Source of the DNA: Panopea generosa
Lineage: Eukaryota; Mollusca; Bivalvia; Adapedonta; Hiatellidae
Assembly: GCA_029582155.1 (NCBI GenBank)
Contig: CM055899.1
Span: forward strand, 70,329,719-70,393,718
Length of the DNA: 64,000 nt
Direction of reading: 5' to 3'
Each line of letters opens with the position of its first letter. Position 1 is the stretch's first letter. The notes beneath the pieces were generated by a model that was not told the DNA's origin, did no database searches, and saw only the letters and a program-made list of their open reading frames with translations. The position numbers and the translations under genes were made by a program. Shown here piece after piece: positions 8,023 through 53,076 of the stretch.

Positions 8023-8095
8023 ACTTTTGTGGTGTAACTGGCAAACACATCTAATCTTTTGTTAGAAGACTCGGGTTCAAATCCTGACAAGAGTA
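8023..8095 (+). other. tRNA-like cloverleaf (tRNA pseudogene or tRNA-derived SINE head)
   Basis: The 73 nt fold as a full cloverleaf. The acceptor stem is ACTTTTG/CAAGAGT with one G-T pair. The D stem is GTGT/ACAC with loop AACTGGCAA. The anticodon stem is TCTAA/TTAGA with loop TCTTTTG. The T stem is TCGGG/CCTGA with loop TTCAAAT, followed by discriminator A. The internal promoter boxes are good (A box TGGTGTAACTGG, B box GGTTCAAATCC). The nominal anticodon would be TTT (Lys), but position 33 is C instead of T and position 37 is T instead of a purine, so a working tRNA is unlikely. It is best read as a SINE head or a decayed tRNA copy. Confidence 0.45.
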
Positions 8096-14573: not shown

Positions 14574-17500
14574 GTTGTTTTTAACATTTATGATTATTCG
14601 AGAATCAATGTTCAAAAACACTAGTAAATAATCTGATATACTAAAATATAGAAATTCAGAACAATTATAACTATGTAAAATATGCCTTCAACGACTTTAT
14701 TTTTCAAAAACATATTGTAGTGATCATCTGTTTAGATTTTTATCAAAATGGCTGCGATGGTGCTATTATTTGATTTAATGATTCTTGGAGGTCTACATTT
14801 GTTTATAAATAGCTACTTTAGCTGGAAAAAGATCTTCCAGTCTCTGTAATAAAGTCATGGTGATCACTAAAGCATTTTGCTTTAAATTTACTTGAAAAAG
14901 GTAAAAGTATATAAATGCCACACCATAAAGTGTTTTAGTTTATGGCCAATATTGTTGTAAGAACTGTCGGTCACTGTTATTAATTATAAAGATCTTGATG
15001 ATTCTTGTCACTTAACAGTGAGACCCATATTCAACATTATTATCCACCTAATATTTCTAAATCAAAGTGCTTAGACCCACCAACAGCTCATTCAATATTG
15101 GGTCATATGAATAACTAAGTGGAATATAGAATTTCATTACATGACTAATTGTGTAAATAAATATTGCATATTTTCAGTTCAAAGGTTGAACAATGAGTTA
15201 TCTAAGTACAGAGAGCAGAACCTGGAACTTCCAGAAAACTTGGAGGTGTGTATAAGAAACTTTGTATGACTAGTGTACACTAAAGTAACATTTTGAGAAA
15301 AGTATAATTACGCCAATATAAATTAATAGATTATCATCCAAATTTTTCTTAAAAAAGGGGAGGGTGGGAGGTTTTTATTTATTTTTATTTTTTAAATTTT
15401 GTTGTTTCTTTTTAAAAAAAAAATAAAATAGGGTGGCATGAAAATTAGGAGGCGGACGGGAATGATAACCTAGCAATTAATTTATTATGGCCTTAAAAAG
15501 AAATTATTTCAGCAAGATTTACATTTTTTCTTACTGTAAATATCAGAATATAACGTTATAAAGTGTTTTTTTCAACATTTATGGCAGGCAGGCCAGGTGG
15601 TGATCTATTATTGGTGGTGTGTATGTTTATGCGTAAAATAATACTTGACAAGTAAAAAAAATCCCAGTGGTGCAATTTGGATACAGGCAATGTATAACTA
15701 GTGTTTACCTGGAGATGTGGACTCACTGTAAGTAATTATGTTGCACATATTAAAATATACATCATGGTCCTCTGTGACCAAATGGTTTACGTTTTTTTTT
15801 TTGTCAGATCACCACTTGAAGCTGGGCAGCAGTGCAGTGTATAGAGTTTTAAAGCTTAAATAAATAAGTATAACCTGTAATGACCTCTTACCTCTTGCTG
15901 CTGAGGTTGTGGGTTCAAGCCCAGCTCAACTTTATGTGAGAGAGTTTACCAGTTACTAGCTGAAGGACGATGGTCGGCTCAAATTCATTCTTCATTCTTT
16001 ATTCACCAACAAAACTGGTTATCCCATATATGACCTGTCATGTTTTGAAAACATCTTTCCCATTGCTCAAAAAATATTATGTGAGAAAGTTTGCCAGTTA
16101 CTTGCGAAAAGATGGTGGTTCTACTCAGATACAGTCTGAGATCTTCCTCCACCAATAAAACTGAATATGCCATAATATATAACCTGAAATGTGTTGAAAA
16201 TGGTATTAAACTCCATTTAAAAGAAGATATAATAAAGAAAAAAGAAAACGGATTTAACCCCATTAAAAATTGATTCAGTTTAATGTGACCATTATACCAG
16301 TATGCTTCTATGTCTTGAGTCTTCTATGTTTTGAGGGTTTGTTTTGTGTATTTCAGGGAACCTTACCTACTAATGGCCTTCCTGCACCATGGCTTACTGA
16401 CAAAAGGTTAGTATCTAACATGGTTTTGCCAATACCATGAACCCAATTTTGTTATTATTCTTCTCTAAAAGTTTCCAGTAAGCATAATAAACTCCGCTTT
16501 GTCTGTGCATACGATGCATCAAGTTAAAATGTGCATATTATCCTTGTCTGTCGGTTCAATTTTCGGTCATTTTTCACAGAGTTGTGGCTCTTTGATTTTG
16601 TCCATTACCAAATCCTTGTTTTTGATTATTTTTGTTTGTCCACACTATTTTTCTACAACTTATAGTTGGAAATTGATGAAATTTCCTAGGGTGCACCACT
16701 ATTAAGTTAAAATGTGCATATTGTACTTGTCTATCGGTTCAATTTTCGGTCATTTTTCACAGAGTTGTGGCCCTTTGATTTTGTCCATTACCAAATCCTT
16801 GTTTTTGATTATTTTTGTTTGTCCACATTATTTTTTCTACAACTTATAGTTGGAAATTGATGAAATTTCCTAGGGTGCACCACTATTAAGTTAAAATGTG
16901 CATATTGTCCTTGTCTATCGGTTCAATTTTCGGTCATTTTTCACAGAGTTGTGGCCCTTTGATTTTTTCCATTACCAAATCCTTGTTTTTGATTATTTTT
17001 GTTTGTCCACACTATTTTTCTACAACTTATAGTTAGAAATTGATGAAATTTCCTAGGGTGTACCACTACTAAGTTACAATGTAAGATGTGAATATTGTCT
17101 TTGTGTTTCAGTTCAATGTTTTTTACAGAATTATGGCCCTTTGATTGTGTCCATTACCCAATCCTTGTAACTTTTTAGCTCACCTGAGTCGAAGGCTCAC
17201 AGGTGAGCTTTTGTGATTGTCTTGTGTCTGTCATCTGTCCTCCGTCGTTAACTTTTAGATTTTAACAACTTCTTCTCTGAAACCACTGGGCCAATTTTGA
17301 TATACTTCACAGTAATGTTCCTTGGGTGACCCTCTACAAAGTTTGTTCAAGCCATCTTGATTCGTCAAAAAACATGGCGGCCAGGGGATGGGGTTAGTTT
17401 ACTATATAAGCTATAGTAAAAACTTAAAAAGTCTTCTTGTCAGAAACTATTGGCTCAATTTTAAAATAATTTCACAGAAATGGTCATTTGGTAACCCTCT

Positions 17501-20500
17501 ACCAAGTTTGTTCAAGCCATCTTGATTCGTTAAAAAACATGGCGGCCAGGGGGTGGGGTTAGTTTTATGTCAAATGTTTTATAGCATAAATGTTTGTATA
17601 TAGCAATTATTATAAGAAGATGTAATAAACTCTTTAAATAAACTTCTTTTGCTATTATTGTACAATAATATACCAAATATAAGTTTTAAAAAATAATTCA
17701 TCATAAAAAGAATGAAATATTATTCATAAATCATAAACCATTTTAAAATAGGTGTTTTTCTGAATATAAAAGTCAGAGTTTTTATGGTTCAGACAGGGAT
17801 AGTTTACTGCTTCATAATAAAGCAATACCATATTTTTAGCTAGTTTTTTCACAGCAAGAAGTCTGCTTCAGATTTTCAGTGTCAAAGTGTACTTGAAATC
17901 TCGGAGGAGGAGCTTAATTGTTTTTGGGGGAGAGTGCACTGCGACAAAGATTCTTTCAAGAGATAGGCTTTGGGAAGGCTTGTGTTTGAAACTCATAGGA
18001 ATACTTATTGCGCTGGAACTGTGGATTGTTTCATGCACAATAGTTTAGTCTGATGCTTTAGTTTGAAACTGTTCTCAAAAATAACATGTTAGTTTTGTGC
18101 TGGAACTGGATTTTTATCTTAGTTCGAAGACTTAGGTTTGGAACAGTCTCCAAACATATAGACAGCTATAGTAAAAACTTTAGTAAAAACTATAGTAAAA
18201 AAGCCTTCTTGTCAGAATCTACTGACCTGATTTTGATGTAATTTCTCTGACATTTACCATGGGTGAACCTCTACCAAGTTTGAACTCTTCTGCGCATCTG
18301 TTACATCTTCAAAACAAATCAAAATTCTAACTTCTGGCCCATCTCGTCTTTCTGGAATTTTGACTGTACTTGTATCATATAATCTACTTAAGTTGGGTGA
18401 CTCAAGATCAGTCAGGTGAGCGATATAGGGCCATCTTGGCCCTCTTGTTCTTTTTATTCAGAGCATATCTTTAAAAGTATGGAAGAAAATCCATTGTGAA
18501 TTGGAACACATGTAGAGTGCAATGTGTGGAAATGCAGAGTATATAAAAGCTGTATCTCGTATAATGACAGAATTATCGCCCATTTCATACTTTATTTTTG
18601 GTTATATTTGCTTATCCAGACTGTATCTTCAAAATTATGGAAGCAAATTCATTGAGACTTGAAACATGGAAAGAGATCAATATGTGGAAGTGCAGGCTGC
18701 AAGAACCAAAAATCTATTTCAGAATTATCTGTCCATTACACCCCTTTCCCTTTACAAACAATGCAACTTTACTCAATCAAGCACTTGTTCTGAAAGTATC
18801 CAGTAGTCACTGCGATATCTTGTTTATTCAGTATTTAATGATATCAATTATTAATCCATGACATATACAATTGAATTATTGATATCATAAAATTATTCGT
18901 GATATCTGTCATTTGATTTCTAAATGTTCATAAAATATACTACATTGTATTAAATTGCATGAGAATATACTACATTGTATTGAAATGCATAAAAATATAC
19001 TTCATTGTAATATAATGCATGAAAACATACTACATTGTATTAAAGTGCATGAAAATATACTATAGCTATTATTTTATTCTATGACATATTTTGCTAAAAC
19101 ACTCAGTATAATAAAAATTGTCTGTATTATATCCAGCCTGCTGTCCCAGCTGCTGGCCGAGTATGATGCGCAGATTAAGGAGCTACAACAAATGATTACA
19201 GCCTACGAGGTAACAGTTAACTCATTCTTTATTGTCCTATCTGTTTCTGTACAAACACTACTGCTCTAATCAAGAAATTACTTTTCTGTGCAATATTTCT
19301 TTGAATAGTGCACTTAAACATTATCAGACATATTGGTGGTGTAGTGCATAGGTTGTTCATGCCAGAGGTCGCAGGTTCAATCCCACGCTTGACCAGATGG
19401 TCTCTCCAAAACAAATTTGAAATATTCACTTTTCCAGGAGACTGATCAGTGCAAAAACCGTTCACAAAAAACAATTGAGCTGAAATAAGTAAGTGAAAAA
19501 CTAAATGATTAGCTCAATTAGGCAAATACAAGAACAAGTTGTCACTCCACAATCATCACCAGCATCCATGGATTTTGATGAAACAGTTTATGTGACATCT
19601 GATGAGTAACCCTGCTCTGATGTGATTCTCTGGTTTTGTTTGTCATTGCCTGACTTTTACATAGTCATTCTACTGACTTCTGGCTGTAGGGCTTATGTCA
19701 TGGCAAATTGTCCATTGTCTACATGTGTTAACTTTCTTCTTGTTAACACAACAGAGTCCCCACCCCCCATTTTTAATTGAATCTTATCCAATCTTTCACA
19801 GGTGTTATATAACCACAAGATCTCAAAGGGGATCTGGAACCAGCATGATTCAATTACAAATGCTCCTGCCACAAGACTTATAAGTACATTTTAAGAGAAA
19901 ATTAAAAAAACATTTTATCTGAAAGTTTAAGGAATAGACCTTAGATATATTATATGTAGCATTCCATGGGGGTTCCCTAGAAGATTTGTTGAAGTCGGGT
20001 CCCAGGGGTCAAATTCGTATCAGCCGCAGGGGTCACTGTTTTACATAGAGTCATACAGGGAATATGTATTATAATATTTTTTCAACAATCTATGTAAAGT
20101 AAGTTTAAAACAAGTATATTGTAAATATATATTTCAGAATGAATTGAAGGGTTTGAGGCCAGAAGTAGCCAGACTTATTGAGGACAATAATCGGTAAGAA
20201 ATAAATTTGCTACGTCAAAGGTTGGTTCATAAACTTGTATTAACTTCATTATGGTCAAATATTTCAGAACATGTGGTTACTTTTTGATACAATGTATTTT
20301 CATCACGTCCATGTTTTTATCGGGATTTTAGTTCTGGCATTTTGTTTGTGGTTATAATTACTTCAATGATGCATTGTTTTACTTTTAAAACTGAGTTTCT
20401 TGCTCTGCTTTTAATGCATAAGCGGAGCATGTGGTCCAGTGGTAGAGTATCCTATCCAAGATTGTGGGGTTGTGGGTTTGTTCCTCAGCCACGACGCATC

Positions 20501-23500
20501 TGCATGAGCTTAGTACTGGTTCTACACAGGACAAGTTTGAGTGTAATTTGTTGAAGTTGTAAGAACTTGTTTCAAAGTCATTGTGAAATAATAAGTATAA
20601 AACATCAGAAAGAATATCACGTATATCATTAAGTTGTTTTATACTACCAGCTAAAGTAACACTTTCTGCAAAAGAACAAAAAATCCATCAAAATAGATTG
20701 GACTACATAGCTGATTGAATTGTTTTTGATTGGCGTGGTACAATATCATTGCACCTGGGGGCTTATAAGCCATAATTTCACTTGTATGATTTGATTTTAT
20801 AAATTTTAGATTATCGGATAATCTGAAGGATGCAGTTAGACACCAGGGTGTGGCATCTGGTGACACAGAGATGCTGGAGGGAGACGAGCAAGCGATACAG
20901 AATCTACAACTACAAGTAGACACAGTATTACAGGTAATACAGCTACCATTATGTCTACGTAACTTTGTTCTAGGACAGCTCATGCTGGTTTTTTTTCTTA
21001 TAGTGCACCCAGTTTTATTGTCTTTTTTGAATTAAGATCATATTGGTGAATTGGAGTGGTGTCACTGTCCAGTTGCAAGTAACTTTGATATACTTTTTCC
21101 TGTAAAATCTTTTGAATAAAGCTGGGCGGTCTTTGAACCACATCATCAGTAGTGTTATTAAGACAGAAAAGAAAAAAAACGGTTCGTTACAGCTAACATG
21201 CAACTTACGTTTATGTGGCCAAAATAATTTAAAAGATTGCAAACATCAATGCAAACTTAAACTGGCTCCAAAAGGCTCAGTCTATAGCACATATGACTGC
21301 TAATTCAGGGGTTGTGAGTTTTTATCCCGACCACAGTCTTCATGATGTTTGATAAACACCATTGCGTCTCATTGTTTTCGTCTCTCACCAGGAACTCATG
21401 TAAGAAAGTTATCAGTTACTTGTTGTGATAGGTGCACTCATGTACTGGTTAACTTCCAGAATCCCACGTAAGAGCATTTAGATTAACTGATCCTCTGTTA
21501 TCCTCTATCCTTAGGTGGCATTAAATACCTCTGAGAGAATGTGTACAGAAAGTTTTTGTAAATGTTTGTCTGCTGCTATATTTTCAGGAGAAGGAGGCAG
21601 CAGTGGAGAGATGGCACGAGGCAGAACAGGAGATTGACAGACTACAGCAGCAGATACAAGTACAGTAGGGGCAGAGTTAGGAGGGTGGTGGCTGTCAGGG
21701 AGTGGGGTAAGAGAAGGAGGCAGCAGTGGAGAGATGGCATGAGGCAGAACAGGAGATTGATAGACTACAGCAGCAGATACAGGTACAGTAGGGGCAGAGT
21801 TAGGAGGGTGGTGGCTGTCAGGGAGGGGGGTAGGAGAAGGAGGCAGCAGCGGAGAGATGGCATGAGGCAGAACAGGAGATTGACAAACTACAGCAGCAAA
21901 TACAGGTACAGTAGGGGCAGAGTTAGGAGGGTGGTGGCTGTCAGGGAGGGGGGTATGAGAAGGAGACAGCAGCGGAGAGATGGCATGAGGCACAGCAGGA
22001 GATCAACAGACTACAGCAGCAGATACAAGTACAGTAGGGGCAGAGTTAGGAGGGTGGTGGCTGTCAGGGAGGGGGGTATGAGAAGGAGGCAGCAGTGGAG
22101 ATATGGCATGAGGCACAGCAGGAGATCAACAGACTACAGCAGCAGATACAAGTACAGTAGGGGCAGAGTTAAAAGGGTGGTGGCTGTCAGGGAGGGGGGT
22201 AGGAGAAGGAGGCAGCAGTGGAGAGATGGCATGAGGCAGAACAGGAGATTGACAGACTACAGCAGCAAATACAGGTACAGTAGGGGCAGAGTTATGAGGG
22301 TGGTTGCTGTCAGGGAGGGGGATAGGAGAAGGAAACCGCAGCGGAGAGATGGCATGAGGCAGAACAGGAGTTTGACAGACTACAGCAGCAAATACAGGTA
22401 CAGTAGGGGCAGAGTTAGGAGGGTGGTGGCTGTCAGGGAGGGGGGTAGGAGAAGGAGGCAGCAGCGGAGAGATGGCATGAGGCAGAGCAGGAGATCAACA
22501 GATTACAGCAGCAGATACAGGTACAGTAGGGGCAGAGTTAAAAGGGTAGTGGCTGTCAGGGAGGGGGTTAGGAGAAGGAGGCAGCAGTGGAGAGATGGCA
22601 TGAGACAGAACAGGAGATTGGCAGACTACAGCAGCAAATACAGGTACAGTAGGGGCAGAGTTAGGAGAGTGGTGGCTGTCAGGGAGGGGGGTAGGAGAAG
22701 GAGGCAGCAGCGGAGTGATGGCATGAGGCAGAGCAGGAGATCAACAAACTACAGCAGCACATATAGGTACAGTAGGCAGTAGGGGCAGCGTTAGGAGGGT
22801 GGTGGCTGTCAGGGAGGGGGGTAGGAGAAGGAGGCAGCAGTGGGGAGATTGCCCAAGGCAGAGCAGGAGATCAACAGACTACAGCAGCAGATATACGTAC
22901 AGTAGGGGCAGATTTAGGGGGATGGTGGCTGTCAGGGAGGGTGGTAGGAGAAGGAGGCATCAGTGATGAGATGGCATGAGTTAGAACAAGAGATTGACAG
23001 ACTACAGCAGCAGATACAGGTAAAGTAGGGGCAGAGTTAGGAGGGTGGTGGTTGTCAGGGAGGGAGATAGGAGAAGGAGGCAGCAGTGAAGAGATGGCAC
23101 GAGGCAGAGCATAAAATTGATAAACAGATTTTGAAATGAGCGGTGATTGTCATGGAGGTAGTAGAATTTAAGCGAAATGTCCACAATATATAAAGGGCAT
23201 GTGTAGACTTTACTAGATTCTAGATATGTGAGAGGCATGCATAGAGTTTAAGTAAATTTTCAATATATGAAGGGTTTGTGTAGGTTTTGCTAGATTCTGA
23301 ATATCTGAGAGGTGTGTAGATTAAGGAAAATTCTCAATATATGAGGGGCCTGTGTAGATTTAGCTACATTTTCATAATACATAAATTACATGGCCATTAA
23401 TGGGCATGGAGGTTTGTATACAGGTTACATCCCAGTCAGAAATTACACATGTATAAAAATACACTATAACAAATATTTTTAGCTTAAATGAACTTCAGAT

Positions 23501-26445
23501 AAAATAAATTAGTGTTTTGTGTTAACGAAGTTATATTGTTTAAAAGTGGTGCAGACAGCAGCATTCACTAACACATACTTCATATATAAGTATTGAGGAT
23601 TCCGTATTGTAAAAAGTAGAAAACTAATGGAAAATAATTGTGAAATAGAATATACTACTAATTTAGTAATTTTATATAAAAAAAAACATTTTTGGCAATG
23701 ACAAGCATCTTTGGTTTAAGATTCTTGTTATATTTTGTAGGAGGAAAAAAACAGTCATCAGTGGGGCATTATAGAACAGCAAGCACAACATGTATGGACA
23801 ACTGAAGAATGTGTCTGGTGTTTTCAAATTTTGTAATATTGGAATATAAAAGGCATCTTCTCATTAATATTGAAAACATGAATAGGTTAATGCAGATAAA
23901 GTTGAATTCTTAGATGTGTTTATTATGAGGGTTTATTTCTTGATAAATCTTCATCAGATGAGTGGATTAAAGCGTCTTTGCCTGTTTGTTAGCTCACCTT
24001 TGACAAATAATCAAGAAAGCTAATTACCATGTCAGCTATGGTTTTCTTAAACTCAAATAATTTTAACATGTGATTCATCTGCCATTATAAGCACTCCCAT
24101 GTATTTTTTTCAGTAAGGAAACCAAGAGTTTTACCTAATCCTTTTTAAAAAACTATTAACATATTCCGATTTAAAAAAAAACTGTTTCCTTTTTTTGTAA
24201 ATAAATGTTTTTTAGGTTGATATTTTGTTTAACGATTTCTTCTTATACTTTCCCCACACACATGAATACATGATACACTATTTATAGTATGTTACTATGC
24301 TGTAAGGTCATGCTCTACAAAGTATGCTCTGAGATCGAGATTTAGGAAGTAATTAAATATCTGTCCAGTACTTTTGACATTAAACTCCTCGTTTATTACA
24401 AGTATTTCATAAAAATTAGTGATTTATTTATTCAAGATTTCTTTCTAATTCTTTAATAAAAAATTCATAAAAAAAAATTTGGTGTAATTTACAGATGCAG
24501 TCTGAATATTTTGAGACCGTCAATTTGTCAACCGTCAACAGAGAAATAGACCAGCTACAGCAGGACCTGAGGTATATTGGCTTCATTTGAATATATTTTA
24601 TTGTTTTTTTTTTATCTAACTGCGGGCTAACAGACGGATCCGTTTACCTCACCACTTTATTCAGGATCCTGGAAGATTACCCAGTACTTGAGTACACACA
24701 TATCTGCAAGTAAAACATAAATTCCCACTTAGAATCAGCATTGGGAGATAAATGAGACACAATGCCATATACCGGTATCAATCATCACATATACTATTTA
24801 AGAAATATTTAAAAAATGCTAAACTTTTTTATTGCGTTGCAAAAATTGATTTTGAAATGATTTTGTTTTTAAATATCCCAAACATTTCAATTCAGCTGTA
24901 TAACTACCTTTGCCAGGACATGTATTATTATCATCTGCATGCATCTATGTATAAGTCATGCATCTATGTATAATTCTTAATTATATACTTGATGTAAACA
25001 ATTTTAAATTTTGTTTTCTTGTAAAGCTTACATTTTCATTGTTTTGGTTAAGTAGTTGATGCAACATATTAATTTTTATGGTTTGTTGATATTGATATAT
25101 TACGGGGTACATATAGATACATTTCATCAAAATTCAAGCTGAGGCCAAAAACAGCCCTTATCATACCTACGCCTTTCAAAGACATATATGTTGTTGAGGA
25201 GTTAATGACTAACAACTGTATGGTAACTCATATTTTTTTATTTCTGATATTGCAAAAACATTCTTTAAACTTACTAGGAAGTTTCATCAAATACTTTCCA
25301 TAGGAAAAAAAAGACAAATTATAGAAATCGTCTTAACAAGCACAATTTTGAGTTTTCATTGGGTAGTCTAGTTTAATGTTTTAAATAGTAAAAGGGTTTA
25401 CCAGCATTTTAGAAATTAGTTGTACTACTAATTTTATTTTGCTTTTAATGAAAATTGTATAATTATAGGCAAACAAAACAGGAATTAGAAACGTCAAGTA
25501 TACAACTGAAGGATGTGAGAAGAACCAGCAAAGAGTTGAAACAACATCTTAATTGGAAGGTAAACTTGTCTTTCTCATTTTGTTGTGAATCGTTGTACAT
25601 CCCTAAAATAGTGTGGTAAGGGTGTATATAGCCGATGTTTTGACAGTCACTCTTCGTCTATTTGTACACGTGTACATCAGTTCCAAATCATTTATTCTAT
25701 AAATTGTTCATAATCATTTTTTTTCCATTATTGTCTGCCCTTTGTTTGTTGTAGCAGTACAGAATTCATCCAATCATATTGGGTTATATAATTATAACAA
25801 GATAGTTGTTACCTTTCTGGATGTAATCTGTACCCTTACCAATGTTTTTTTTACATTTACTAGTATTTCTTGGTTCTATTTTACTTTATATTTAATAAAT
25901 AATAGAAATACAATAATTACATACATGTATATATGGTATTTTGTTTCTCCAATATGTATAATGTACAGTTTAAATTGTTGTGAACTGCTGAAGAGAGTTT
26001 CAGTGCAAAGTTACAATATATATTTTTTTATATTCTACATGTATATCTGTGATATTTAGTTAAACCAACTGCAGCAGTGATATAGGGGTAGACCATCCAC
26101 CTTGCATGCTGAAGGTTGTGGGTTCAAATGCTGAAGGTTGTGGGTTCAATCCCCAGTCTGGTCGACCAAATACTTGAAAAAAATATACTAGAAGCTTCCT
26201 CGCTTGGTGCTCATGATCAAGAGGATAGTGCTAGGTCTGGTTGGGGTACCATACCATGTGCATACTCCAGTGTGTCAGTGCTCAAGCAGGCAATGTCTCA
26301 ATATAAGTGAAAACTTGTACTTACAAGTACTTTTTAACCTGTCTCTATTACAGGACCAGGAGGTGTCTGAGGTTATATTCAAGGAAGGCATCACTGATAG
26401 TAAGATGGGAGAATTGAAGAGAATTATGGATGACCTCAGGAACAA
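14563..26445 (+). CDS. SCLT1: sodium channel and clathrin linker 1 (SCLT1) orthologue, N-terminal half, spliced
   Basis: Joining exons 14563-14573, 15185-15245, 16357-16406, 19137-19209, 20138-20193, 20810-20933, 21588-21659, (23741-23791), 24495-24571, 25469-25559 and 26354-26445 gives one frame of about 235-250 residues with consistent splice phases. The product is a continuous coiled coil without membrane segments. From memory of human SCLT1, the order of landmarks matches: RLN near the start, a LAEYD motif, an ENNRL-like then LKDAV motif, the AV-x-x-W ... E-x-DRL segment, and ETVN ... DLRQTKQEL. In vertebrates SCLT1 sits on the distal appendages of the mother centriole with CEP83, CEP89, FBF1 and CEP164 and is needed for ciliogenesis; it was first found as a clathrin linker of Nav1.8. 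The human protein has nearly 690 residues, so the C-terminal part is missing here. Confidence 0.75.
15178..15245 (+). CDS. SCLT1: SCLT1 exon (RLNNELSKYREQNLELPENLE)
   Basis: The pyrimidine tract ends in TTTTCAG at 15177, and a second AG lies at 15183-15184. Using the second AG makes the exon 15185-15245 and joins in phase to the candidate first exon. Using the first needs a different, unidentified first exon ending in phase 1. The donor is GAG/GTGTGT. The peptide RLNNELSKYREQ parallels the RLN start of the vertebrate protein. Confidence 0.65.
15360..15880 (+). other. SCLT1 intron, AT-rich
   Basis: Homopolymer-rich sequence (runs of T and A at 15370-15430). No feature is recognised until the SINE pieces begin. 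Confidence 0.5.
15838..16272 (+). repeat. two SINE copies in tandem in an SCLT1 intron
   Basis: A head with B box GTGGGTTCAAGCCCAGCTC (about 15908) is followed by the body GTGAGAGAGTTTACCAGTTA and the tail CAACAAAACTGGTTATCCCA. A second body then starts at 16081 (GTGAGAAAGTTTGCCAGTTA), with tail ACCAATAAAACTGAATATGC. The second lacks its own head. Short frames on both strands over it are incidental. Confidence 0.7.
16357..16406 (+). CDS. SCLT1: SCLT1 exon (GTLPTNGLPAPWLTDK)
   Basis: The acceptor is TTTCAG at 16351-16356 and the donor is AAAAG/GTTAGT. It enters in phase 0 and leaves two bases (AG) that complete Ser with the next exon. The Pro-rich linker corresponds to the non-helical gap before the first coiled coil. 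Confidence 0.65.
16515..17175 (+). repeat. tandem repeat of about 183 bp, three copies plus a diverged fourth
   Basis: The phrases AAGTTAAAATGTGCATATTR (about 16521, 16704, 16887), TCGGTTCAATTTTCGGTCAT, CACAGAGTTGTGGCYCTTTG and GAAATTTCCTAGGGTGCACC recur in order. The fourth copy at 17070-17170 is more diverged. The array abuts the mobile element at 17177. Confidence 0.85.
17177..18448 (+). mobile_element. non-autonomous element with AGCTCACCTGA / TCAGGTGAGCG ends, bivalve type
   Basis: It starts AGCTCACCTGAGTCGAAGGC with a nearby internal hairpin (CTCACAGGTGAGCT) and ends TCAGGTGAGCGATATAGGGC, then GGGCCATCTTGGCCCTCTTGTT. Inside there are two copies of GTTTGTTCAAGCCATCTTGA and ACATGGCGGCCAGGGG (17345-17395 and 17507-17560) and of CTATAGTAAAAACTT (17410 and 18170). 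The stretch 17580-18160 is unrelated to these subunits and could be an insertion. It codes for no protein. The type is familiar to me from many bivalve genomes. Confidence 0.65.
18449..18920 (+). other. SCLT1 intron
   Basis: The 87-codon frame 18598-18861 has no splice support and no family likeness. Confidence 0.5.
18920..19075 (+). repeat. minisatellite of about 32 bp, five copies
   Basis: Units of the form GCATGAAAATATACTACATT + GTATTAAA repeat at about 18928, 18960, 18992, 19024 and 19056. Confidence 0.8.
19137..19209 (+). CDS. SCLT1: SCLT1 exon (LLSQLLAEYDAQIKELQQMI)
   Basis: The acceptor is ATATCCAG and the donor is GAG/GTAACA. The first base completes the Ser codon. The LLAEYDAQIKEL segment aligns with the conserved EYD-x-x-x-x-EL of SCLT1. 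This is the start of the coiled coil. Confidence 0.75.
19325..19490 (+). repeat. tRNA-derived SINE in SCLT1 intron
   Basis: The head TGGTGGTGTAGTGCATAGGT and B box GCAGGTTCAATCCCACGC are followed by AGATGGTCTCTCCAAAACAA. The minus-strand 81-codon frame is incidental. Confidence 0.5.
19491..20137 (+). other. SCLT1 intron with no feature seen
   Basis: The 62-codon frame 19695-19883 has no support. Confidence 0.5.
20138..20193 (+). CDS. SCLT1: SCLT1 exon (NELKGLRPEVARLIEDNNR)
   Basis: The acceptor is ATATTTCAG and the donor is ATCG/GTAAGA. It leaves CG, which with the first base of the next exon makes Arg. The VARLIEDNNRL segment matches the conserved IKENERL region. Confidence 0.8.
20428..20600 (+). 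repeat. tRNA-derived SINE in SCLT1 intron
   Basis: The head GCATGTGGTCCAGTGGTAGA resembles an A box. GGGTTGTGGGTTTGTTCCTC is a decayed B box. Confidence 0.5.
20810..20933 (+). CDS. SCLT1: SCLT1 exon (LSDNLKDAV ... QLQVDTVLQ)
   Basis: The acceptor is AAATTTTAG and the donor is TTACAG/GTAATA. The LSDNLKDAV segment is the most diagnostic piece, equal to the SELKDAV motif of the family. It is followed by an acidic loop (GDTEMLEGDEQ) and a new helix (AIQNLQLQV). Phase 0 at the end. Confidence 0.8.
21296..21495 (+). repeat. SINE fragment in SCLT1 intron
   Basis: AATTCAGGGGTTGTGAGTTT (B box region), GTCTCATTGTTTTCGTCTCT, GAAAGTTATCAGTTACTTG and GTGCACTCATGTACTGGTTA follow the same order as 28752-28996 in reverse. 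Confidence 0.55.
21588..21659 (+). CDS. SCLT1: SCLT1 exon, first copy of the amplified exon
   Basis: The acceptor GCTATATTTTCAG is outside the repeat unit and is the only strong one in the array. The donor is CAA/GTACAG. The 24 residues EKEAAVERWHEAEQEIDRLQ + QQIQ align with the family segment that has the invariant Trp followed by E-x-DRL. The exon is 72 nt in phase 0-0, so skipping or adding copies would not shift the frame. Confidence 0.75.
21588..23130 (+). repeat. 123-bp tandem array made of an SCLT1 exon plus the start of its intron
   Basis: Units start at 21588, 21711, 21834, 21957, 22080, 22203, 22326, 22449, 22572, 22695, 22825, 22948 and 23071 (the step of 130 comes from a 7-bp insertion at about 22777; the last unit is partial). 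Each is 72 nt of exon plus 51 nt of intron beginning GTACAGTAGGGGCAGAG. Copies 1-9 keep the SCLT1 frame without stops and with mild changes (V/A, R/K, D/N, E/Q). Copy 10 has TGA at the Arg codon and TAG at its end; copy 11 loses the Trp; copy 12 has donor GTAAAG. The AG before the exon is present in most units (TAG/GAGAAGG) but is TAT in copies 4 and 5. The long + frame 21562-22782 and the minus frame 21511-21993 are read in other phases and are by-products of 123 being 3 x 41. Confidence 0.9.
23131..23380 (+). repeat. degenerate minisatellite of about 80 bp, three copies
   Basis: The phrases CAATATATRARGGGYNTGTGT, AGANTTTRCTAGATTCTR and ATATCTGAGAGGTGTG recur at about 23184, 23262 and 23335. 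It directly follows the exon array in the same intron. Confidence 0.6.
23381..24494 (+). other. SCLT1 intron, AT-rich
   Basis: Besides the candidate exon at 23741-23791, no array or mobile element is recognised. Vertebrate SCLT1 has about 30 residues between the segments coded by the flanking exons, so at least one exon should lie here. Confidence 0.5.
23741..23791 (+). CDS. SCLT1: SCLT1 candidate extra exon
   Basis: The acceptor TTATATTTTGTAG is followed by 17 codons (EEKNSHQWGIIEQQAQH) and a donor CAT/GTATGG. Both borders are in phase 0, as needed between the neighbouring exons. The peptide is polar and rich in Glu and Gln but has no diagnostic match, so this is only a phase-compatible candidate. 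Confidence 0.3.
24495..24571 (+). CDS. SCLT1: SCLT1 exon (MQSEYFETVNLSTVNREIDQ)
   Basis: The acceptor is AATTTACAG and the donor is CTGAG/GTATAT. It continues with LQQDL and leaves AG, completed to Arg by the next exon. The segment FETVN ... IDQLQQDLRQTK parallels FLKTV ... IEQLRKKLRQAK of the vertebrate protein. Confidence 0.75.
24622..24770 (-). repeat. SINE fragment in SCLT1 intron, minus strand
   Basis: It contains the family body in reverse (CTAACAGACGGATCCGTTTA, CCCAGTACTTGAGTACACAC, ATATCTGCAAGTAA, GATAAATGAGACACAATGCC), as at 28752-28900. Confidence 0.6.
25469..25559 (+). CDS. SCLT1: SCLT1 exon (QTKQELETSSIQLKDVRRTS)
   Basis: The acceptor is ATTATAG and the donor is TGGAAG/GTAAAC. 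It ends KELKQHLNWK in phase 0. It aligns without gaps with the AKLELRVAVAKVEELTNVTE region of vertebrate SCLT1. Confidence 0.75.
26060..26315 (+). repeat. tRNA-derived SINE in SCLT1 intron
   Basis: The phrases GATATAGGGGTAGACCATCC and GTTGTGGGTTCAATCCCCAG look like the A and B boxes of a tRNA-derived head. The stretch TGCTGAAGGTTGTGGGTTCA is duplicated in tandem (about 26107 and 26130). Related heads lie at 15838, 19325 and 20432. Confidence 0.55.
26354..26445 (+). CDS. SCLT1: SCLT1 exon (DQEVSEVIFKEGITDSKMGE)
   Basis: The acceptor is TATTACAG and the donor is AACAA/GTATAT. It continues LKRIMDDLRN and leaves AA, so the next exon must begin with one base completing the codon. It is the last exon with a recognisable SCLT1 fit. 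The reading frame runs on into the intron up to 26563, which is not expected to be coding. Confidence 0.7.
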
Positions 26446-27560: not shown

Positions 27561-27835
27561 TTGGGTATATGTATTCAACATTTTGTGTGAACCATAATCA
27601 ACTCTACGCTGTTTTAATTAATTTTTATTACGCCATGAACTGTTATTTTTGTTATTCATGTTATTGTACTTTTTTGATTGTTTTTCTTATCTGTTTAATG
27701 TTGTAAATCTATTTTAATATCTATGCAAACACTGTAATAAGATGCAAATACACAATGTTTGTGTAAGGCTCTATTCCGTCCAATATCAGTATATGTGACC
27801 ATTGAATTTTGTATCAATATTATATGTTTTTGTGC

Positions 27836-32489: not shown

Positions 32490-32790
32490 TTATTTGTTTC
32501 TCAGTCTCCATCTACATTGTTTGGCTCTTAGTCTACATCCACATTGTTTGGCAATCAATCGTCATCTACATTGTTTGGCTCTCAGTCAACATCCACATTG
32601 TTTGGCTCTCAGTCAACATCCACATTGTTTGGCAATCAATCGTCATCTACATTGTTTGGCTCTCAGTCAACATCCACATTGTTTGGCAATCAATCGTCAT
32701 CTACATTGTATGGCTCGCAGTCTCCATCTATATTGTTTGGCCTTTCGTCTACATCAACATTGTTTGGCTCTCAGTCAATAAAACTCTTTA
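32490..32790 (+). repeat. 27-bp minisatellite (TLFGSQSTS periodicity), first block
   Basis: About eleven units of ACATTGTTTGGCTCTCAGTC + AACATCC or the variant with GGCAATCAATCGTC are present. In one frame (32544-32807) this reads as nine-residue FG repeats, Thr-Leu-Phe-Gly-Ser-Gln-Ser-Thr-Ser. The frame has no start context, domain or continuation and stops soon after the array, so it is treated as a repeat. Confidence 0.85.
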
Positions 32791-33199: not shown

Positions 33200-33975
33200 A
33201 ATGCCACATGCTCAGTGTACATCTACATAGTTTGGCTATCAGACTTCTTCTACATTGTTTGACTCTCAGTCTCCATATACATTGTTTGACACTCTTTCTA
33301 CATCCACATCTATAAAGTTTGGCTCTCAGTTTCCATGTGCATTGTTTGTCTCTCAGTCTCCGTCTATATTTTTTGGCTCTCAGTCTCTATCTACATTGTT
33401 AGGCTCTCCATCTATATCGATATTATTTGACTCTCAATCTCCGTGTACATTGTTTGGCTCCCAGTCGGCATCTAATTGTTTGACTCTCAGTCTCCATAAA
33501 CATTGTTTGGCTCTCAGTCTACATCTGCATTGTTTGGCTCTCAATCTCCATCTACATAGGTTTGATCTCAGTCTCCATGTACATTATTTGTCTCTCAGTT
33601 TCCGTCTATATTGTTTGGCTCTCAGTCTCTATCTACATTGTTGGCTCTCAGTCTACATCTACATAGTTTGGCTATAAGTCTCAATGTACATTGTTTGTCT
33701 CTCAGTCTCCGTTTATTTTGTTTGCCTCTCAATCTCCATCTACATTGTTTGGCTCTCAGTCTACATTTACATTGTTTGGCTATCAGTCTTCATCTACATT
33801 GTTTGACTCTCAGTCTCCATAAACATAGTTTGACTCTCAGACTCCATTTACATTGTTTGACACTCAGTATCCATCTACATTGTTTGACTCTCAGTCTCAA
33901 TATGCGTTGTTTGGCTCTCAATCTCCATGCACAATGTTTGGCTCCCAGTGAGCATCTACATTGACTCTCAATAAA
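33200..33975 (+). repeat. 27-bp minisatellite, second, more diverged block
   Basis: About 29 units of the type CATTGTTTGGCTCTCAGTCT + CCATCTA, with variants GTTTGACTC and GTTTGTCTC and several indels that shift the FG frame. Confidence 0.85.
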
Positions 33976-46159: not shown

Positions 46160-47312
46160 TATCACATGCAGCATACACAAATACACCCCCTTGGCGAACA
46201 CCTGGATTCTTCGGCGCACTCCCAGCCGCTAGTAGGGTGTCTGGGCTACATTTAGAGGGCAAGCTTTTAACTGTGTGTCTAGTAGGAAGTCTGCACGACT
46301 TGTTTGACCTTTTGGTATTAGGCAGTGCCATAGATTGTAAACAGGCGACGCCTGGGTCAGCCTTCCTGGTCTTTTCGGCACACACAAATACACCCCCTTG
46401 CCAAACACTTGGGTTCTTTGACACACTCCCAGTCGAAAGTAATCGTTCTGGGCTACATTTAGAGGGCAAGCTTTAGAGTGTGTGTCAAACAGAACGTCTG
46501 TACGAGTTGTTTAACTTTTGTGTCTTTTGCAAGGCTAGCCTGTTTCCCGCTCTTTTGGGGCGAACCGTCGAGGCTTGGGGTTCCTTCGCGGCACTTACAA
46601 ATACACTCCCTTGGCAAACGCCTGGGTTCTTTGGCGCACTCCCAGCCGCTAGTAGGCAGACTGGGCTACATTTAGAGGGCAAGCTTTTGAGTGTGTGTCA
46701 AACAGAACGCCTGTACGAGTTGTTTAACTTTTGTGTCTTTTGCAAGGCTAGCCTGTTTCTCGCGCGTTTTGGGCGAACCGGCGACGCTTGGGCGCCTTTG
46801 CAGCACACACAAATACACCCCCTTGTCGAACACCTGGGTTCTTTGGCGCACTCCCAGACGCTAGTAGGGTGTCTGGGCTACATTTAGAGGGCAAGCTTTT
46901 AACTGTGTGTCTAGTAGGACGTCTGCACGACTTGTTTGACCTTTTGGTATTAGGCAGTGCCATAGATTGTAAACAGGCGACGCCTGGGCCAGCCTTCCGG
47001 GTCTTTTCGGCGCACACAAATACATCCCCTTGCCAAACACTTGGGTTCTATGACACACTCCCAGTCGAAAGTAGTCGTTCTGGGCTACATTTAGAGGGCA
47101 GGCTTTTCAGTGTGTGTCAACTAGAACGCCTGTACGAGTTGTTTAACTTTTGTGTCACTTGCAAGGCTAGCCTGTTTTCCGCTCTTTTGGAGCGAACCGT
47201 CGAGGCTTGGGGGTCCTTCGCAGCACACACAAATACACTCACTTGGCAAACACCTGGGTTCTTTGGCTCACTCCAAGCCGCTAGTAGGCAGTCTGGGCTA
47301 CATTTAGAGGCT
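46160..47312 (+). repeat. 632-bp trimeric satellite, block in forward orientation
   Basis: Five to six subunits of about 211 bp appear in the orientation opposite to the main block. Subunits end with TACATTTAGAGGGCAAGCTT. Three subunit types alternate: one with GCACGACTTGTTTGACC, one with GGGGCGAACCGTCGAGGCTT, and one with GGGCGAACCGGCGACGCTTG. Divergence is higher than in the main block. Confidence 0.9.
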
Positions 47313-50300
47313 AACCCATGTGTTTGCCAAGGGGGTGTATTTGTGCGGGCCGCAAAGGCGCCCAAGCGTCGCCGGTTCGCCCAAAACGCGCGAGAAACAG
47401 GCTTCCCTTGCAAAAGACACAAAAGTTAAACAATTCGTACGGGCGTTCTGTTTGACACACACTCAAAATCTTGCCCTCTAAATGTAGTCCAGACTGCTTA
47501 CTAGCGGCTAGGAGTGCGCAAAAAAATCCAGGTGTTTGCCAAGGGAGTGTTTTTGTGTGTGCCACGAAGGACCCCCAAGCCTCGACGTTCCGCCCCAAGA
47601 GAGCGGGAAACAGGCTAGCCTTGCAAAAGACACAAAAGTTAAACAACTCGTACAGGTGTTCTGTTTGACACACACTCAAAAGCTTGCCCTCTAAATGTGG
47701 CCCAAAACAACTACTTTCGACTGGTAGTGTGTCATAGAACCCAAGTGTTTGGCAAGGGGGTGTATTTGTGTGCGCCGAAAAGATCGGGAAGGCTGGCCCA
47801 GGCGTCGCCTGTTTACAATCTATGGCCCTGCCTAATACCAAAAGGTCAAACAAGTCGTGCAGACGTCCTACTAGACACACAGTTAAAAGCTTGCCATCTA
47901 AATGTAGCCCAGACACCCTACTAGCGGCTGGGAGTGCGCCAAAGAACCCAGGTGTTCGCCAAGGGGGTGTATTTGTGTGTGCCGCAAAGGCGCCCAAGCG
48001 TCGCCAGTTCGCCCAAAACGCGCGAGAAACAGGCTAGCCTTGCAAACGACACAAAAGTTAAAAAGCTCGTACAGGCGTTCTGTTTGACACACACTCAAAA
48101 GCTTGCCCTCTAAATGTAGCCCAGACTGCCTACTATCGACTGGGAGTGCGCCAAAGAACCCAGGTGTTTGCCAAGTGAGTGTATTTGTGTGTGCCGCGAA
48201 GGACCCCCAAGCCTCGACGGTTCGCCCCAAAAGAGCGGGAAATAGGCTAGCCTTGCAAAAGACACAAAAGTTAAACAACTCGTACAGGCGTTCTGTTTGA
48301 CACACACTCAAAAGCTTGCCCTCTAAATGTAGCCCAGAACGACTACTTTCGACTGGGAGTGTGTCATAGAACCCAAGTGTTTGGCAAGGGGGTGTATTTG
48401 TGTGCGCCGAAAAGACCGGGAAGGCTGGCCCAGGCGTCGCCTGTTTACAATCTATGGCCCTGCTTAATACCAAAAGGTCAAACAAGTCGTGCAGACGTCC
48501 TACTAGACACACAGTTAAAAGCTTGCCCTCTAAATGTAGCCCAGACACCCTACTAGCGGCTGGGAGTGCGCCAAAGAACCCAGGTGTTCGCCAAGGGGGT
48601 GTATTTGTGTGTGCCGCAAAGGCGCCCAAGCGTCGCCGGTTCGCCCAAAACGCGCGAGAAACAGGCTAGCCTTGCAAACGACACAAAAGTTAAACAGCTC
48701 GTACAGGCGTTCTGTTTGACACACACTCAAAAGCTTGCCCTCTAAATGTAGCCCAGACTGCCTACTAGCGGCTGGGAGTGCGCCAAAGAACCCAGGTGTT
48801 TGCCAAGGGAGTGTATTTGTGAGTGCCGCGAAGGACCCCCAAGCCTCGACGGTTCGCCCCAAAAGAGCTGGAAACAGGCTAGCCTTGCAAAAGACACAAA
48901 ACTTAGACAACTCGTTCAGTCGTTCTGTTTGACACACACTCAAAAGGCTGCCCTCTAAATGTAGCCCAGAACGACTACTTTCGACTGGGAGTGTGTCATA
49001 GAATCCAAGTGTTTGGCAAGGTGGTGTATTTGTTTGCGCCGAAAAGACCGGGAAGGCTGGCCCAGGCGTCGCCTGTTTACAATCTATGGCCCTGCCTAAT
49101 ACCAAAAGGTCAAACAAGTCGTGCAGACGTCCTACTAGACACACAGTTAAAAGCTTGCCCTCTAAATGTAGCCCAGACACCCTACTACCGGCTGGGAGTG
49201 CGCCAAAGAACCCAGGTGTTCGCCAAGGGGGTGTATTTGTGTGTGCCGCAAAGGCGCCCAAGCGTCGCCGGTTCGCCCAAAACGCGCGAGAAACAGGCTA
49301 GCCTTGCAAACGACACAAAAGTTAAACAGCTCGTACAGGCGTTCTGTTTGACACACACTCAAAAGCTTGCCCTCTAAATGTAGCCGAGACTGCTTACTAG
49401 CGGCTGGGAGTGCGCCAAAGAACCCAGGTGTTTGCCAAGGGAGTGTATTCGTGTGTGCTGCGAAGGACCCCCAAGCCTCGACGGTTCGCCCCAAAAGAGC
49501 GGGAAACAGGCTAGCCTTGCAAAAGACACAAAAGTTAAACAACTTGTACAGGCGTTCTGTTTGACACACACTCAAAAGCTTGCCCTCTAAATGTGGCCCA
49601 GAACGACTACTTTCGACTGGGAGTGTGTCATAGAACCCAAGTGTTTGGCAAGGGGGTGTATTTGTGTGCGCCGAAAAGACCGGGAAGGCTGGCCCAGGCG
49701 TCGCCTGTTTACAATCTATGGCCCTGCCTAATACCAAAAGGTCAAACAAGTCGTGCAGACGTCCTACTAGACACACAGTTAAAAGCTTGCCCTCTAAATG
49801 TAGCCCAGACACCCTACTAGCGGCTGGGAGTGCGCCAAAGAACCCAGGTGTTCGCCAAGGGGGTGTATTTGTGTGTGCCGCAAAGGCGCCCAAGCGTCGC
49901 CGGTTCGCCCAAAACGCGCGAGAAACAGGCTAGCCTTGCAAACGACACAAAAGTTAAACAGCTCGTACAGGCGTTCTGTTTGACACACACTCAAAAGCTT
50001 GCCCTCTAAATGTAGCCCAGACTGCCTACTAGCGGCTGGGAGTGCGCCAAAGAACCCAGATGTTTGCCAAGGGAGTGTATTTGTGAGTGCCGCGAAGGAC
50101 CCCCAAGCCTCGACGGTTCGCCCCAAAAGAGCTGGAAACAGGCTAGCCTTGCAAAAGACACAAAACTTAGACAACTCGTTCAGTCGTTCTGTTTGACACA
50201 CACTCAAAAGGCTGCCCTCTAAATGTAGCCCAGAACGACTACTTTCGACTGGGAGTGTGTCATAGAATCCAAGTGTTTGGCAAGGTGGTGTATTTGTTTG

Positions 50301-53076
50301 CGCCGAAAAGACCGGGAAGGCTGGCCCAGGCGTCGCCTGTTTACAATCTATGGCCCTGCCTAATACCAAAAGGTCAAACAAGTCGTGCAGACGTCCTACT
50401 AGACACACAGTTAAAAGCTTGCCCTCTAAATGTAGCCCAGACACCCTACTAGCGGCTGGGAGTGCGCCAAAGAACCCAGGTGTTCGCCAAGGGGGTGTAT
50501 TTGTGTGTGCCGCAAAGGCGCCCAAGCGTCGCCGGTTCGCCCAAAACGCGCGAGAAACAGGCTAGCCTTGCAAACGACACAAAAGTTAAACAGCTCGTAC
50601 AGGCGTTCTGTTTGACACACACTCAAAAGCTTGCCCTCTAAATGTAGCCGAGACTGCTTACTAGCGGCTGGGAGTGCGCCAAAGAACCCAGGTGTTTGCC
50701 AAGGGAGTGTATTCGTGTGTGCTGCGAAGGACCCCCAAGCCTCGACGGTTCGCCCCAAAAGAGCGGGAAACAGGCTAGCCTTGCAAAAGACACAAAAGTT
50801 AAACAACTTGTACAGGCGTTCTGTTTGACACACACTCAAAAGCTTGCCCTCTAAATGTGGCCCAGAACGACTACTTTCGACTGGGAGTGTGTCATAGAAC
50901 CCAAGTGTTTGGCAAGGGGGTGTATTTGTGTGCGCCGAAAAGACCGGGAAGGCTGGCCCAGGCGTCGCCTGTTTACAATCTATGGCCCTGCCTAATACCA
51001 AAAGGTCAAACAAGTCGTGCAGACGTCCTACTAGACACACAGTTAAAAGCTTGCCCTCTAAATGTAGCCCAGACACCCTACTAGCGGCTGGGAGTGCGCC
51101 AAAGAACCCAGGTGTTCGCCAAGGGGGTGTATTTGTGTGTGCCGCAAAGGCGCCCAAGCGTTGCCGGTTCGCCCAAAACGCGCGAGAAACAGGCTAGCCT
51201 TGCAAACGACACAAAAGTTAAACAGCTCGTACAGGCGTTCTGTTTGACACACACTCAAAATCTTGCCCTCTAAATGTAGCCCAGACTGCCTACTAGCGGC
51301 TGGGAGTGCGCCAAAGAACCCAGGTGTTTGCCAAGGGAGTGTATTTGTGTGTGCCGCGAAGGACCCCCAAGCCTCGACGGTTCGCTCCAAAAGAGCGGGA
51401 AACAGGCTAGCCTTGCAAAAGACACAAAAGTTAAACAACTCGTACAGGCGTTCTGTTTGACACACACTCAAAAGCTTGCCCTCTAAATGTAGCCCAGAAC
51501 GACTACTTTCGACTGGGAGTGTGTCATAGAACCCAAGTGTTTGGCAAGGGGGTGTATTTGTGTGCGCCGAAAAGACCGGGAAGGCTGGCCCAGGCGTCGC
51601 CTGTTTACAATCTATGGCCCTGCCTAATACCAAAAGGTCAAACAAGTCGTGCAGACGTCCTACTAGACACACAGTTAAAAGCTTGCCCTCTAAATGTAGC
51701 CCAGACACCCTGCTAGCGGCTGGGAGTGCGCCAAAGAACCCAGGTGTTCGCCAAGGGGGTGTATTTGTGTGTGCCGCAAAGGCGCCCAAGCGTCGCCGGT
51801 TCGCCCAAAACGCGCGAGAAACAGGCTAGCCTTGCAAACGACACAAAAGTTAAACAGCTCGTACAGGCGTTCTGTTTGACACACACTCAAAAGCTTGCCC
51901 TCTAAATGTAGCCCAGACTGCCTACTAGCGGCTGGGAGTGCGCCAAAGAACCCAGGTGTTTGCCAAGGGAGTGTATTTGTGTGTGCCGCGAAGGACCCCC
52001 AAGCCTCGACGGTTCGCCCCAAAAGAGCGGGAAACAGGCTAGCCTTGCAAAAGACACAAAAGTTAAACAACTCGTACAGGCGTTCTGTTTGACACACACT
52101 CAAAAGCTTGCCCTCTAAATGTAGCCCAGAACGACTACCTTCGACTGGGAGTGTGTCATAGAACCCAAGTGTTTGGCAAGGGGATGTATTTTTGTGCGCC
52201 GAAAAGACCGGGAAGGCTGGCCCAGGTGTCGCCTGTTTACAATCTATGGCACTGCCTAATACCAAAAGGTCAAACAAGTCGTGCAGACGTCCTACTAGAC
52301 ACACAGTTAAAAGCTTGCCCTCTAAATGTAGCCCAGACACCCTACTAGCGGCTGGGAGTGCGCCAAAGAACCCAGGTGTTCGCCAAGGGGGTGTATTTGT
52401 GTGTGCCGCAAAGGCGCCCAAGCGTCGCCGGTTCGCCCAAAACGCGCGAGAAACAGGCTAGCCTTGCAAACGACACAAAAGTTAAACAGCTCGTACAGGC
52501 GTTCTGTTTGACACACACTCAAAAGCTTGCCCTCTAAATGTAGCCCAGACTGCCTACTAGCGGCTGAGAGTGCGCCAAAGAACCCAGGTGTTTGCCAAGG
52601 GAGTGTATTTGTGTGTGCCGCGAAGGACCCCCAAGCCTCGACGGTTCGCCCCAAAAGAGCGGGAAACAGGCTAGCCTTGCAAAAGACACAAAACTTAGAC
52701 AACTCGTTCAGTCGTTCTGTTTGACACACACTCAAAAGCTTGCCCTCTAAATGTAGCCCAGAACGACTACTTTCGACTGGGAGTGTGTCATAGAACCCAA
52801 GTGTTTGGCAAGGGGGTGTATTTGTGTGCGCCGAAAAGACCGGGAAGGCTGGCCCAGGCGTCGCCTGTTTACAATCTATGGCCCTTCCTAATACCAAAAG
52901 GTCAAACAAGTCGTGCAGACGTCCTACTAGACACACAGTTAAAAGCTTGCCCTCTAAATGTAGCCCAGACACCCTACTAGCGGCTGGGAGTGCGCCAAAG
53001 AACCCAGGTGTTCGCCAAGGGGGTGTATTTGTGTGTGCCGCAAAGGCGCCCAAGCGTCGCCGGTTCGCCTAAAACA
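47313..53076 (-). repeat. 632-bp trimeric higher-order satellite, main block, inverted
   Basis: About nine 632-bp units have identical landmarks at 47898, 48530, 49162, 49794, 50426, 51058, 51690 and 52322. Each is a trimer of subunits of about 211 bp that begin AAGCTTGCCCTCTAAATGTA (HindIII site) and differ by type. Units at 48530-49793 and 49794-51057 agree in rare variants (GGCTGCCCTCTAAATG; TAGCCGAGACTGCTTAC), which shows a 1264-bp dimer duplication. The sequence is much richer in GC and CpG than its surroundings. The minus-strand frames of 243 codons and plus frames of 65-128 codons recur with the repeat and are not treated as genes. Confidence 0.95.

Follow-up and report, generated by a model that had tools for sequence, protein, structure and literature searches.

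An exon array in the window

Does a gene that carries one of its exons many times in tandem build a longer protein with them, or has a repeat grown out of coding DNA? The question is raised by a stretch of the genome of the bivalve Panopea generosa (contig C6, GenBank CM055899.1, positions 70329719-70393718; 64,000 nt, called the window below and numbered 1-64000), in which a 72-nt coiled-coil exon of SCLT1 is repeated together with the first 51 nt of the intron that follows it. Our answer, to which we give a probability of roughly 0.88, is that this array arose from exon-plus-intron DNA as a G-rich minisatellite, within a segmental duplicate that is unprocessed, truncated and derived from the 5' half of SCLT1; most likely, it is a non-functional repeat and not a means of lengthening the protein. 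Read by itself, the window suggests an exon amplifier, a possibility raised in a first-pass annotation of the sequence. The rest of the genome (1.47 Gb in total, in 39 contigs) shows, elsewhere, what appears to be the complete gene, with one such exon.

Tandem Repeats Finder (TRF) reports the array at 21586-23108, with a period of 123, 12.3 copies, 90% matches and a score of 2402, high enough to make a separate chance model needless. Thirteen units start between 21588 and 23071, namely 12 full units (21588-23070, plus strand) and a degenerate thirteenth (23071-23193, plus strand, its end being nominal). Each full unit consists of a 72-nt exon-like part and a 51-nt G-rich spacer, the start of the next intron (28 G in the 51 nt of the unit 2 spacer), and successive starts lie 123 bp apart in 11 of 12 cases and 130 bp apart in the remaining one (unit 10). 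The arrangement originally described, an exon of 72 nt and 51 nt of intron recurring every 123 bp about 13 times over 21588-23130, is thus confirmed. An array of 12.3 head-to-tail copies of 123 bp has the form of a minisatellite, a class in which units between tens and some hundred base pairs long follow one another head to tail. A weaker tandem repeat of 38/77 bp (23184-23374) adjoins the end of the array.

The exon part of unit 1 (exon e5, phase 0-0, 21588-21659, plus strand) is the sole one with a pyrimidine-rich acceptor in front of it (GTCTGCTGCTATATTTTCAG, pyrimidine fraction 0.71). Units 1-9 contain no stop and all nine retain the tryptophan, as had been claimed; the claim that all of them also keep an E-x-x-R-L core has to be reduced to eight, unit 3 having K. 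Beyond these, two stops interrupt the frame of unit 10, and the tryptophan is gone from unit 11. A GT donor follows the exon part in all 12 full units, and TAG precedes the exon part at 9 of the 12 boundaries of units 2-13, with TAA at unit 2 and TAT at units 4 and 5. Two linked variant classes are interspersed along the array: units 4, 5, 8, 10 and 11 have ATC-AAC, and the remaining 7 of the 12 have ATT-GAC or a sequence one step away from it. These three features had all been noted correctly in the first reading. The third codon of the spacer is an in-frame TAG in 12 of 12 spacers, so that copies left unspliced would stop translation.

Four copies of the locus, one of them apparently complete

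The unit occurs at four places in the genome: in the window (copy A), at C6:70.07M (copy B), at C3:76.81M (copy C) and, on the minus strand, at C3:72.02M (copy D). The exon stretch 20811-20933 has four genome matches, at the same four loci. The colinear blocks listed, which are separated by gaps, join A to B between points 1.2 kb ahead of the window and 8 kb past it (94.9-99.9% identity), to C from 7308, the start of the C sequence compared, to 42941 (88.7-94.9%), and to D from 1805 to 27588 (86.2-95.2%). Intron divergence amounts to 0.061 between A and C and to 0.089 (349/3935) between A and D. The region thus exists in four large segmental copies, the window being one of them.

The number of full units is unstable among the four loci, as in a minisatellite: 12 in A, 3 in B, 15 in C and 1 in D. 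All four arrays end in a similar degenerate unit, with 4-7 differences per 100 nt among the copies of the locus. In C, an indel interrupts the exon part of 2 of the 15 full units, the GT donor is found in 13 of 15, and in-frame stops occur in 7 of 15. The array of D is made of one intact 72-nt exon, a 50-nt spacer and the degenerate unit, which has a stop at the tryptophan codon.

All four copies were compared with a human SCLT1 sequence that served as a provisional reference. Among them, the later SCLT1 exons were found in D only, where they lie in order and with splice sites (C3:71.98-72.04M, minus strand) and extend as far as residue 670 of this human protein. The joined exons of D (583 amino acids, residues 5-583 aligned) score 294 bits against this reference, and 50 shuffles gave at most 60.8, which bears out the name SCLT1 given to the locus at first sight; the colinear exon match marks the window locus as a fragment of that gene, as far as the provisional reference goes. 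A protein search with the C-terminal part of the reference found a single weak match, which lies in D (E 0.03). One 137-nt 3' exon of D, which proved more effective as a DNA probe and is the sole 3' exon searched genome-wide, matches only itself. By these sequence comparisons, D alone of the four copies appears to be the complete SCLT1 gene. Eight of its introns were measured (652-2797 nt), and two of them probably hold an undetected exon; the two small exons predicted there by reading phase, in the e2-e3 and e3-e4 gaps, were not found.

A truncated copy whose exons change like introns

The window copy retains, all on the plus strand, exons e2 (15178-15245, 68 nt, one difference from D, with intact AG and GT flanks), e3 (19137-19209, 73 nt, four differences, open), e4 (20810-20933, 124 nt, three differences, open), the e5 of unit 1, e6 (24495-24571, 77 nt, in frame and 6 nt longer than that of D), e7 (25469-25559, 91 nt, five differences, three of them amino-acid changes) and e8 (26354-26445, its last base placed by the GT donor), which is the last SCLT1 exon found in A. 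Homology to the complete gene ends at 27588-27593, the last A-D colinear block stopping at 27588. Up to that point the introns are kept and the flanks resemble those of the parent, as expected of an unprocessed pseudogene, and essential parts are missing: none of the 11 probes made from the remaining exons of D (e1 and e9-e18) matches A in 79 kb (the 64-kb window and 15 kb of flanks), none matches B in the 70 kb examined, and two (e1 and e9) match C in 70 kb. In copy C, moreover, 39 of the 73 nt of e3 are left and two stops lie in e9, and in copy B there is a stop in e4. With the start-codon exon absent from the window copy, a transcript of this copy would not make SCLT1.

The rates of change were compared over columns in which all four copies align, of which 510 lie in exons (e2, e4, unit 1 of e5, e6, e7 and e8) and 3171 in intron flanks; gapped columns were dropped, as were e3, which is cut in C, and its flanks. 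Exon and intron changes number 3 and 19 on the A branch, 5 and 29 on the B branch, and 7 and 42 on the branch common to both, so that the exons of A and B have changed as fast as the introns (15 of 510, 2.9%, versus 90 of 3171, 2.8%; Fisher test, P = 0.89), a neutral rate. On the D side, the exons have changed far less (3 of 510 versus 125 of 3171, P = 1.1e-5), the tree being unrooted, so that the stem shared by A, B and C is counted with D. The translations also reveal five amino-acid changes common to A and B relative to C and D. Together, the rates and these shared replacements indicate that the D side has been constrained and that the A/B side has not.

Are the units spliced?

One alternative is that the units serve as genuine cassette exons with 51-nt introns between them, and that variable splicing lengthens the coiled coil of SCLT1 in steps of 24 residues. 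The GT donor in 12 of 12 units, the TAG before 9 of 12 and the nine open units with tryptophan are what such cassettes would look like. Their acceptors are not. Over the 17 bases that precede the last three before the exon, the pyrimidine fraction is 0.24-0.29 before units 2-13, against the value of unit 1 given above and 0.41-0.82 for the 15 acceptors measured in D, and 3 of the 12 inter-unit acceptors do not even have the AG. By these sequence criteria a usable pair of splice sites does not accompany each copy, and splicing of the spacers is unlikely. Since a normal acceptor stands before unit 1 only, no more than one 72-nt exon would enter any transcript made from the window locus. The unit-unit, e4-e5 and e5-e6 junctions, searched genome-wide as 24-mers with up to 2 mismatches and without a positive control, gave 0 matches each; as neither neighbour junction was found either, there is no sign of a retrocopy, and the zero carries no information on splicing.

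Exon copies in use should also be better conserved than the intron between them. Among units 1-12 of A, the mean pairwise difference is 0.110 in the exon part versus 0.071 in the spacer; the exon part is the more variable, but not significantly so (permutation test, P from 0.085 to 0.27). The first-pass annotation was right in this respect, the spacer being at least as well conserved as the exon. Its suggestion that the mini-introns are spliced to extend the coiled coil fails at the level of the locus as well: an array of alternative exons is expected in an intact gene, yet the apparently complete gene lies on another contig and has one intact unit, and the window locus is truncated, finds no match to e1 and e9-e18, carries exons that changed at the intron rate, and has the in-frame TAG in every spacer. 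We thus regard cassette exons as very improbable. The other half of the same suggestion, a minisatellite born from coding DNA, is supported.

Several observations nevertheless pull away from a dead repeat in a neutrally evolving duplicate. In the window copy, every exon from e2 to e8 is still open and flanked by an intact AG and GT. Six of the 10 exon differences between A and B are synonymous (nonsynonymous to synonymous rate ratio, dN/dS, 0.16), a skew that speaks against neutrality, and the dN/dS of 0.20 between A and D also points to constraint, part of it D's own. Copy C taken alone (11 of 510 exon versus 108 of 3171 intron columns, P = 0.18) is neither clearly neutral nor constrained. 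Half of the distinct exon changes in units 1-9 of A are synonymous (9 of 18, null mean 4.5, P = 0.011), an excess that would favour cassette exons; we give it little weight because the cut at unit 9 was picked for the openness of those units. The proportion is 10 of 32 in units 1-12 of A (P = 0.13), 4 of 7 in B (P = 0.09) and 7 of 35 in C (P = 0.61; 14 of 15 units, unit 13 being omitted for its deletion). As for the acceptors, three true ones of D are pyrimidine-poor too (0.41, 0.41 and 0.47), so that the gap between the array and the weakest real acceptors is moderate. Finally, human cells are described as splicing G-rich introns of 43 and 49 nt that have no good 3' splice site or branch site (PMC4463651), and for this reason we call splicing of the spacers unlikely, not impossible.

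Age of the array and competing histories

The units of A differ from each other (mean divergence 0.093) nearly as much as they differ from those of C (0.103) and D (0.105), and some have their closest relatives in another copy of the locus (A11 in C13, A12 in B3, C14 in A12). This likeness across copies, together with the common last unit, implies that the array predates the separation of A and C; B, with its three full units, probably lost some. Much of the expansion is old. One event is clearly recent, a duplication of two units in C, where C5 is identical to C7 and C6 differs from C8 by one base (0.008), and turnover of units is thus continuing. The proposal that recent expansion and homogenisation account for the similarity of the units accordingly applies to this duplication; it does not apply to much of the array, given the divergence within A and the variants common to other arrays.

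We propose that the seed was an old tandem duplication of the exon and 51 nt of the following intron. Unequal exchange or replication slippage would have multiplied this seed before A and C separated, in copies freed from selection by the loss of essential exons, and B would later have lost units.

Two other histories are compatible with a minisatellite in a truncated window copy. A and B could be two haplotypes of one locus that the assembler placed in tandem, and the array an allelic variable number tandem repeat (VNTR) with 12 versus 3 full units in one animal. The two lie about 282 kb apart on one contig (B region C6:70047001-70117000, upstream of the window), their flank divergence is 1.66% (66/3982), and identity reaches 99.9% farther out; a range of block identities from 94.9% to 99.9% would equally fit a true duplication with patchy exchange, and we consider the haplotype reading possible but rather unlikely. 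Alternatively, the ancestral working gene may already have carried the array, D having contracted to one unit later. The unit divergence within A (0.093) is close to the A-D intron divergence (0.089), which would date the expansion to roughly the time of the split from D, and the D unit shares variants with internal units of the other copies, at position 105 with A12, B3 and C15 and at position 97 with A9. These variants may, however, be ancestral; furthermore the spacer of D ends in TAA, like unit 1 of all copies, and this end lies downstream of position 105, a combination that would not result from one exchange involving unit 1 and a late unit. A contraction in D is a tentative idea, which we would on balance doubt.

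A bolder version has the array once spliced: either before the duplication or shortly after it, the ancestral gene would have joined several 72-nt units across G-rich 51-nt introns, and the working gene would later have reverted to one exon. If true, such a stage would account both for the surplus of synonymous changes in units 1-9 and for how old the diversity among units is, and the arrays would be relics in duplicates, perhaps still spliced in some transcripts. We hold it to be highly unlikely.

Comparison with known systems

The reading that we prefer, a minisatellite in a truncated duplicate, places the array close to two familiar classes. With minisatellites and VNTRs it shares head-to-tail 123-bp units, a G-rich strand, a unit number that varies by copy of the locus, common end units and internal turnover; it differs in that the unit holds a whole 72-nt exon with its donor, and it is known here from one assembly. 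With unprocessed (segmental) pseudogenes it shares kept introns, lost start and 3' exons and an exon rate equal to that of introns, the difference being that e2-e8 of the window copy are still open.

Repeat units that hold exons together with introns are found in LPA, in the kringle IV type 2 VNTR. There a 5.6-kb unit of variable number repeats coding sequence within a protein-coding gene (PMC11462820); the present array is likewise a variable tandem unit with coding sequence, of 123 bp and in a truncated copy. In earthworm metallothionein genes, exon 4 duplicates are reported that are not represented in the transcript, along with intronic minisatellites in the same gene family (PMC12783039). 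Gene and animal are others, and the portion of that report on which we draw does not describe a truncated-duplicate setting. An exon duplication is likewise reported from a bivalve, in the alternative oxidase of oyster, whose duplicated exon is alternatively spliced (PMC5589949) and there enters alternative mRNAs of a functional gene. The human ultra-short introns (PMC4463651) resemble the 51-nt spacer in length and in their runs of G; those are spliced, whereas the likeness here is one of sequence. In a literature search on SCLT1 exons, limited to open-access titles and the starts of abstracts, none of those listed named such an array, which does not prove absence. Known kinds cover the array, namely VNTRs with coding units and duplicates of exons that stay out of the transcript, as in earthworm metallothionein.

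Two points give the locus a wider interest. Its four copies, whose full units number 1, 3, 12 and 15, offer a small natural series on how a minisatellite can be born from an exon-plus-intron duplication and grow under released selection. They also carry a warning for annotation, as nine consecutive open units with GT and mostly TAG borders are easily mistaken for coding exons.

Other features of the window

Tandem repeats reported by TRF cover 38% of the window (1-64000), and those with a period of at least 20 alone cover 37%. On either side of about 47311 (46167-47310 and 47313-53069) lies a G+C-rich tandem repeat of 213 bp whose orientation is reversed from one side to the other; the arms are 95-96% complementary over 1144 nt, which makes this the junction of inverted satellite arrays. 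A 27-bp tandem repeat at 32499-32776 and 33211-33963 reads SQSxSTLFG in one frame, with one stop in the 93 codons of the first block and a broken frame in the second; its product would resemble nucleoporin FG repeats. Further upstream, a transfer RNA (tRNA) gene or tRNA-like element is found at 8023-8095 (Rfam RF00005, 50.3 bits).
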